DNA of 54,817 nt from an uncultured Planctomycetaceae bacterium (GTDB lineage: Bacteria; Planctomycetota; Planctomycetia; Planctomycetales; Planctomycetaceae), in the NCBI GenBank assembly GCA_937916515.1, contig CALFSX010000140.1:1-54817 (forward strand), read 5' to 3'. Under the pieces are notes generated by a model. That model was not told where the DNA came from, did not search any database, and saw only the letters and a list, made by a program, of their open reading frames with translations. Each line of letters starts with the position of its first letter. Within the stretch, counting starts at the first letter, position 1. This document shows, piece by piece, positions 10,688 through 35,182 of this stretch. The position numbers were made by a program, and so were the translations under genes.

Positions 10688-11086
10688 CTACTCCGTAGCG
10701 GCGGCAACAATTGTTTTGCGGTTCGGAATGCCAGCGTGGCGGTAACTCACGTCGCCAGCCTTGTTCAGGATTACCGTGGTCGGTACGGCTTGAACGTTGA
10801 AACGTTTGCCGATTTCCTGGCCGATTGCGGTAAGCATGTTCAACCGAATCACTTCGGCTTTACCTTCAAGGTCGTTTTCTATCCCATCCACGATGGGCTT
10901 TGCTGCCAGACAAGGCATTCAGCCATTGCTGAAGAATTCCAGCACCAAAGTGCCCTGCCCGACCTTCCTGTCAAAGTCGGAAGTCGAATCCAATTTGGTG
11001 GCCTTGCTGCGCAGAAACAGCCAGGCCGTTATTGCAATGGTAAAAAACAGAATGGCGGGAAGTTTGCTTTGAAGAAAGACCAACAT
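10688..11086 (-). CDS. membrane-anchored thioredoxin-like protein with in-frame TGA at the CxxC nucleophile: candidate selenoprotein (132 aa if TGA is read)
   Basis: Read through a single in-frame TGA (10921-10919), the minus strand encodes MLVFLQSKLP, a membrane helix (AILFFTIAITAWLFL) and a thioredoxin fold. The fold contains LVLEFFSNG-(TGA)-MPCLAAKP, then VIRLNM and the cis-Pro block VQAVPTTVIL, and ends GIPNRKTIVAAATE. Aligned by eye with E. coli thioredoxin, the TGA falls exactly on the attacking Cys of WCGPC, giving U-M-P-C. No other stop or frameshift is present, and both halves keep conserved features. A hairpin suited to a SECIS lies just downstream. The start at 11086 has an AGGA element upstream; longer in-frame starts add an unlikely extension. 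It is probably a thiol/selenol oxidoreductase facing the periplasm. The alternatives are a recent nonsense mutation or a sequencing error. Confidence 0.65.
10883..10897 (-). promoter_or_regulatory. candidate SECIS stem-loop
   Basis: In the mRNA sense, CCCAUC-GUG-GAUGGG forms a perfect 6-bp stem with a GUG loop. Its first loop base is G, followed by U, 27 nt after the in-frame UGA. Bacterial SECIS elements lie inside the coding region shortly after UGA and have a G (often GU) at the start of a small apical loop, so spacing and loop agree. A bulged U like that of E. coli fdhF is not seen. Confidence 0.55.
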
Positions 11087-11234: not shown

Positions 11235-11906
11235 CTACTCCTGCAGTTGCCATTCTATGACGGGTTGACCGTTCGCTTTCAGAAACTGATTGATTGTGGA
11301 AAACGGTTTGCTGCCGAAGAAACCTCTGCGAGCCGACAGTGGTGATGGATGAGCACTTTCAATCAGCAGATGTCGCTTGTCGATCAGTGTCGACTTGGTC
11401 TGAGCTGGCTTGCCCCACAACACAAATGCAACCGACGCTTGTTTATTGACGCACTCAATCACTTTTGTTGTGAACGTTTCCCAGCCTCGCTTTTTATGAG
11501 AATTCGCTTCGTGGGCTCGCACAGTTAACACGGTATTCAGCAGTAGCACTCCCTGCGTCGCCCATGATTCAAGATGTCCATGACTTGCTGGTGCGATTCC
11601 AAGATCTGTTTCCAGCTCTTTGTAGATGTTCCGCAGCGAAGGCGGCACCTTGATGCCCTTCTGGACAGAAAAACTCAGCCCGTGAGCCTGGCCATCGTCG
11701 TGGTATGGGTCCTGCCCTAAAATCAGCACTCGAACTTCATTTAACGGAGTCAACTTTAGCGCGTTAAAGACATCATCTTCCGCTGGAAACACGCTCGCTT
11801 CCTGCCTTTGCTGATTCACAAACTGTTGTAGTGTTTGAAAATAGTCGGCCGCAAATTCGTCCTGCAAGGCCTCCTGCCAACAAGTTGGCAGCTGGTGAAT
11901 GTTCAT
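11235..11906 (-). CDS. ung: uracil-DNA glycosylase, family 1
   Basis: It removes uracil from DNA to start base-excision repair in the cytoplasm. The water-activating motif GQDPYH is at residues 64-69 (catalytic Asp66). The Phe-containing uracil-pocket segment GLSFSV, the LLLNTVLTVR block and the minor-groove intercalation loop HPSPLSA (residues 186-192) are all present. At 223 aa it is full length for the family. The gene begins 6 bp after the stop of the alkyltransferase-like gene on the same strand, so the two form a small DNA-repair operon. The start fits the family N-terminus. Confidence 0.97.
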   Translation of the reverse strand: MNIHQLPTCWQEALQDEFAADYFQTLQQFVNQQRQEASVFPAEDDVFNALKLTPLNEVRVLILGQDPYHDDGQAHGLSFSVQKGIKVPPSLRNIYKELETDLGIAPASHGHLESWATQGVLLLNTVLTVRAHEANSHKKRGWETFTTKVIECVNKQASVAFVLWGKPAQTKSTLIDKRHLLIESAHPSPLSARRGFFGSKPFSTINQFLKANGQPVIEWQLQE

Positions 11907-35062: not shown

Positions 35063-35082
35063 CCACGGGCTCGCGCCCGTGG
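35063..35082. repeat. GC-rich perfect hairpin (REP-like)
   Basis: CCACGGGC-TCGC-GCCCGTGG, an 8-bp perfect stem with a 4-nt loop, lies about 70 bp upstream of the gene starting at 34993. A smaller GTCAC-TTC-GTGAC hairpin follows at 35095-35107. Confidence 0.7.
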
Positions 35083-35182
35083 CTATCACATAGCGTCACT
35101 TCGTGACTTTAACGCTCCCAAACTCCAGTCTGCGAGTCTCGCGTTAACTCATTGGTTTTCAGCTCAAAAATCCTTCACGGCG

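Follow-up and report, generated by a model that had tools for sequence, protein, structure and literature searches.

A probable selenocysteine-containing thioredoxin with a predicted membrane anchor in a planctomycete genome

Comparative analysis of a 54,817-nucleotide stretch of DNA from an uncultured Planctomycetaceae bacterium (the window) indicated that a gene on its minus strand, at positions 10688–11086, very probably encodes a thioredoxin-fold oxidoreductase that is probably tethered to the membrane, with the active site Sec-Met-Pro-Cys and a UGA codon read as selenocysteine (Sec). An initial annotation had put the gene forward as a candidate selenoprotein, and this reading is supported by a TGA conserved at the same codon in a second genome, by constraint on the codons that follow it, and by the presence of selA, selB, selC, and selD in the host genome. 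On this comparative evidence, we regard it as a real selenoprotein gene. In the proposed mechanism, SelA would convert tRNA-Sec using selenophosphate supplied by SelD, and SelB, attached to a hairpin in the mRNA immediately past the UGA, would deliver tRNA-Sec, so that ribosomes would read the UGA at 10921–10919 as selenocysteine. The selenolate of Sec56 would then act as the nucleophile and attack the substrate disulfide, and Cys59 would resolve the mixed selenide-sulfide. In ordinary thioredoxins, a Cys/Cys pair performs the same attack and resolution.

Thioredoxin frame and position of the TGA

The window corresponds to contig C140 in a genome assembly (G000) of 8.33 Mb and 343 contigs, which is 99.34% complete and 1.83% contaminated. 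The minus-strand frame runs from an ATG at 11086–11084 to a TAG at 10690–10688, stop codon included, exactly as initially delimited, and contains a single internal stop, the TGA at 10921–10919. When this TGA is counted as a residue, the product comprises 132 residues, with the TGA at residue 56 in the context EFFSNG-U-MPCLA (motif UMPC). The second, putatively resolving Cys (residue 59, codon TGT, 10910–10912) and the cis-Pro of the AVPTT block (residue 102, codon CCG, 10781–10783) are both present, in agreement with the initial annotation, and both positions are occupied by the same residue in all 49 aligned homologues. With the TGA entered as Cys, the protein scored 35.2 bits against the Pfam Thioredoxin family (PF00085), above the gathering cut-off of 23.5. 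A profile search of the PDB with the window protein and its orthologue retrieved 84 distinct solved sequences at E ≤0.001, the best being a thioredoxin. In the two PDB profile alignments listed, the TGA falls on the first active-site Cys of the solved thioredoxins, so that the frame and these alignments bear out the initial placement of the TGA at the first Cys of CxxC. As a control, no internal stop was seen in any of the 13 matches to PF00085 that a search of the genome listed at E ≤0.001; the window gene was itself not listed by that search.

Comparison with ordinary bacterial thioredoxins (TIGR01068) revealed the same catalytic columns. TIGR01068 was the top NCBIfam match for the window protein and its orthologue, yet the scores of 45.6 and 37.9 bits lie below the cut-off of 96.8. 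The window gene differs from ordinary thioredoxins in having a TGA for Cys and a Gly in place of the Trp that precedes their active site, and the two proteins share the motif NG-U-[ML]PC, as against the usual W-C-GPC. The chance of about 1 in 130 that was first given for a stop falling on this codon is fair arithmetic for a single random stop; we consider the recurrence of the TGA at the same codon of an orthologue with about 48% identity, described below, to be the stronger argument.

Conservation of the TGA and constraint on the codons past it

A second genome of the same genus (G015) carries an orthologue at L022:1498–1896, with a TGA at L022:1663–1665, which is the same codon. The two proteins are about 48% identical (62 of 124 residues in another alignment), and their pairwise alignment requires two single-residue gaps, both ahead of the TGA. 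Downstream of the TGA, the two proteins agree at 38 of 76 residues, and there are 25, 20, and 46 differences at codon positions 1, 2, and 3, an excess at third positions with a chi-square p value of 0.002. Upstream, 25 of 54 residues are identical, with 20, 15, and 37 differences at the three codon positions. The dN and dS values were 0.41 and 1.48 (NG86) or 0.49 and 0.91 (YN00) past the TGA, and 0.48 and 3.10 (NG86) or 0.57 and 1.95 (YN00) ahead of it; these are pairwise values with silent sites near saturation, and their direction alone is to be taken. The identity and third-position bias past the TGA indicate that the downstream part appears to be translated, and its codons appear to be under protein-level constraint like that on the codons before the TGA. 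Other than the TGA, no damage was seen in the window copy, as initially described, nor in the G015 copy. The codon right after the TGA is ATG (10918) in the window and CTG in G015, and the G015 gene is itself terminated by a TGA.

To characterize the column occupied by the TGA, we aligned homologues from protein and alignment searches and from a contig scan, the window gene's own two loci being excluded. Of the 59 loci tried (L022–L051 and L054–L082), tblastn at E 0.01 aligned 49 and gave no hit for the other 10. Among the 49 aligned homologues, 48 have Cys at the column, which provides the UGA/Cys pairing that the initial annotation had suggested looking for, and the remaining one is the TGA of G015. 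The Cys homologues are only ~24–37% identical, and the 49 include no close Cys form of this lineage. Close relatives with TGT or TGC at this codon, combined with decay of the window copy, would have spoken for an inactivated gene; no such pattern was found, and the sole close relative found has TGA.

In a search of the family, 48 of 170 genomes gave a match with an E value no higher than 1e-6, of which only that in G015 was close. Four listed matches contained an internal stop: those in G000 and G015, one in G006 (one TGA), and one in G111 (one TAA). The G006 match (G006:C34:185405–185746, L036), a distant one, was considered as a further Sec member and rejected, since its active site is CGPC and its TGA lies elsewhere. 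In the order, 5 of 170 genomes had a match, with a TGA only in G000 and G015. In a phylum sample of 392 genomes, 37 had a match, with stops only in G000 (TGA) and G468 (TAA); G015 was not among these matches and was presumably not drawn. The contig scan yielded one distant relative, with Cys at the column, and a plasmid search yielded eight records, each below 60% identity, the five listed being annotated as thioredoxins.

Selenocysteine machinery and a candidate SECIS hairpin

Absence of selA, selB, selC, and selD had been named at the outset as evidence against a selenoprotein; all four were found in the genome, each above its curated cut-off. G000 contains one match each for tRNA-Sec (77.6 bits, cut-off 47), selB (310.8 versus 242.25), selA (500 versus 267.9), and selD (257.3 versus 125), and ARAGORN identified a tRNA-SeC with the anticodon TCA. 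All of these genes lie on one contig, C72 (locus L052), where selD, selA, and selB are minus-strand neighbours; tRNA-Sec shares their strand, and a 405-residue frame on the opposite strand lies between it and selD. A frame that by eye resembles a recombinase adjoins tRNA-Sec on the opposite strand and points at it (L052:923–2230 and 2291–2383), a layout suggestive of an element integrated at selC. In a 746-residue frame (L052:3955–6195), selD makes up the second half, and the first half resembles, by eye, an NADH-dehydrogenase-type flavoprotein.

The selB gene scored above the cut-off in all 8 genus genomes and in 63 of the 170 family genomes; with selB so distributed, gene calling that stops at UGA may hide more genes of this kind. 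For G015, the Sec machinery was covered by the selB search only, and the 8.8 kb contig that carries its selB contains no tRNA. A second selenoprotein in G000 was sought through the formate dehydrogenase alpha subunit, for which the sole match was partial, below the cut-off, and without a stop. Across the 8 genus genomes, 16 such matches were obtained, none with an internal stop and none above the cut-off, suggesting that formate dehydrogenase may not be a selenoprotein in this genus, although selB is present in all 8.

A candidate SECIS apical hairpin, CCCAUC-GUG-GAUGGG, is located at 10883–10897 (minus strand), with its loop 27 nt after the UGA and G first in the loop. Its G015 counterpart, CCCAU-CGUGA-AUGGG, has a spacing of 26 and the 5-nt loop CGUGA. 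The published bacterial SECIS model specifies a loop of 3–9 nt with a G in its first two positions, a stem of 4–16 bp, a spacing of 16–37 nt from the UGA, and a minimum free energy of at most −7.5 kcal/mol (PMC13188914). Hairpins of this geometry occur at the same place in both genes. The hairpin-bearing stretches fold at −14.1 kcal/mol in the window and −11.3 kcal/mol in G015, and the bare hairpins at −6.8 and −4.3 kcal/mol, which would miss the −7.5 limit should it apply to the bare hairpin. The bare-hairpin energies were reached by 86 of 5000 synonymous recodings for the window and 172 of 5000 for G015.

The SECIS search suggested by the initial annotation thus had a divided outcome: the geometry fits in both genes, but it also fits ~9–15% of the synonymous recodings (261–461 of 3000 for the window and 289–455 of 3000 for G015, the ranges reflecting folded lengths of 42, 48, or 54 nt). 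Among these qualifying recodings, 133–230 for the window and 163–303 for G015, of 3000 each, placed the loop at the same spacing. In five window genes, the codon positions that fit the model ranged from 155 of 2077 to 296 of 2057. The shuffle z-scores were −1.90 for the window and −0.36 for G015, with 8 of 200 and 70 of 200 shuffles folding at least as well. The hairpin codons, CCC ATC GTG.AT GGG, have third positions common to both genes; this run of five third positions was equalled in 6511 of 20,000 shuffles and was not counted as proof of a SECIS. An Rfam search over 10820–10960 at E ≤10 returned 5 matches, all to snoRNA families far below their gathering scores, and nothing above chance. 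Taken on sequence, the hairpin is a likely but unproven SECIS, with weak support from these statistics.

These data also bear on other explanations of the TGA. One of these is a pseudogene, an ordinary Cys thioredoxin hit by a nonsense mutation or a sequencing error; in its favour, the TGA truncates the frame, and the gene is dispensable, as implied by the 6 of 8 genus genomes in which no close homologue was found. A sequencing error is very unlikely because the same TGA occurs in a second genome assembly. The shared codon in an orthologue as divergent as that of G015, the constraint that runs on for 76 codons, the lack of other damage in either copy, and the full selABCD set all speak against inactivation, and constraint on both sides of the TGA is not expected of a pseudogene, so that we consider this explanation very improbable.

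Still smaller weight is given to two cistrons, in which a short membrane peptide would end at the TGA and translation would restart at the adjoining ATG (TGA-ATG) to give a fragment that starts inside the active site. The ATG at 10918 does open a 76-residue frame in the window; however, the CTG in G015 shows that this start is not conserved, and a split within the active-site motif would leave no whole thioredoxin domain in either half, making this arrangement extremely unlikely. We regard as equally remote a read-through of the UGA as another amino acid, e.g., Cys or Trp, without selenium. The statistical weakness of the SECIS hairpin would be compatible with it, but tRNA-Sec (anticodon TCA), selA, selB, and selD are present above their cut-offs, the TGA terminator of the G015 gene indicates that TGA is not read through everywhere, and Sec occupies this site in known UxxC thioredoxins. 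Insertion of selenocysteine remains by far the preferred reading of the TGA.

Membrane anchor, relatives, and locus

The window protein has a predicted N-terminal membrane helix at about residues 8–27 (11006–11065, minus strand), recognized by eye as a hydrophobic stretch, and a similar stretch is seen by eye at the N-terminus of the G015 protein. A single-sequence structure model placed a helix at residues 8–31 with low confidence (pLDDT 54.7, pTM 0.34). The thioredoxin is probably membrane-tethered, and several Arg/Lys residues after the hydrophobic stretch in both proteins suggest, by eye, an anchor that leaves the thioredoxin domain facing the cytoplasm.

Among selenoprotein thioredoxins, UxxC is already a known arrangement. 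Two reviews place thioredoxin (PF00085) with UxxC in the group ahead of predicted selenoproteins (PMC9312934, PMC13188914), a table of Sargasso Sea sequences contains eleven UxxC selenoprotein thioredoxins (PMC1088965), and the family is listed in Geobacter, Treponema denticola, and others (PMC1794560) and recorded also in Anaeromyxobacter and Carboxydothermus (PMC1088965, PMC1794560, PMC9312934, PMC13188914). In these sources, the known proteins belong to the same family as the window protein and likewise have Sec for the first Cys of CxxC. As judged by description only, the window protein differs from them in its N-terminal hydrophobic stretch, the predicted anchor, in the motif NG-U-[ML]PC, and in its planctomycete host lineage, and no close Cys form was found here. 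The marine planctomycetes P1 and P2, which are algal isolates, resemble the window genome in having the complete set of Sec insertion genes, and selenoproteins have been predicted in them; those named include fdhA and fmdB, as against the thioredoxin here (PMC4807772). In searches of the open-access literature, none of the titles and abstract openings listed describes a membrane-anchored planctomycete Sec-thioredoxin. Since UxxC thioredoxins as such form a known family (PMC9312934, PMC13188914, PMC1088965), only the anchored planctomycete form, which the initial annotation had also singled out, looks undescribed within these searches. The gene would add this apparently undescribed, anchored form to the selenoprotein thioredoxins, and a Sec residue at a catalytic site that is well understood, in a genome that also encodes the cofactor pathway, is open to direct testing.

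Directly upstream of the thioredoxin gene lies a gene that by eye encodes a uracil-DNA glycosylase (11235–11906, minus strand), which marks a locus common to G015. In both genomes, the same-strand order is a methylguanine-methyltransferase-like gene, the uracil-DNA glycosylase gene, and the thioredoxin gene (names by eye), and inspection by eye showed no redox partner gene immediately adjacent to the thioredoxin. All 8 genus genomes have the glycosylase gene; the thioredoxin gene was detected in 2 of them. In the six others, the 1.5 kb after the glycosylase gene contained no thioredoxin-like [CU]xPC motif, tblastn over 1.5 kb on either side of it gave nothing better than E 0.029, and whole-genome searches returned no close homologue, the one match being a 25% identical Cys thioredoxin in G018. 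In the glycosylase tree, 3 of 5 inner branches are unresolved, so that loss and gain of the thioredoxin gene are indistinguishable. We consider it somewhat probable that these proteins represent a membrane-tethered lineage that exists solely in the Sec form, without a close Cys version, at a fixed locus after the glycosylase gene in some genus members, others having lost it or never acquired it, and that its SECIS hairpin is formed by exactly the PIV[DN]G codons. Elsewhere in the window, an Acido-Lenti-1 RNA was matched by Rfam at 35063–35108 on the plus strand (46.9 bits; gathering score, 37).
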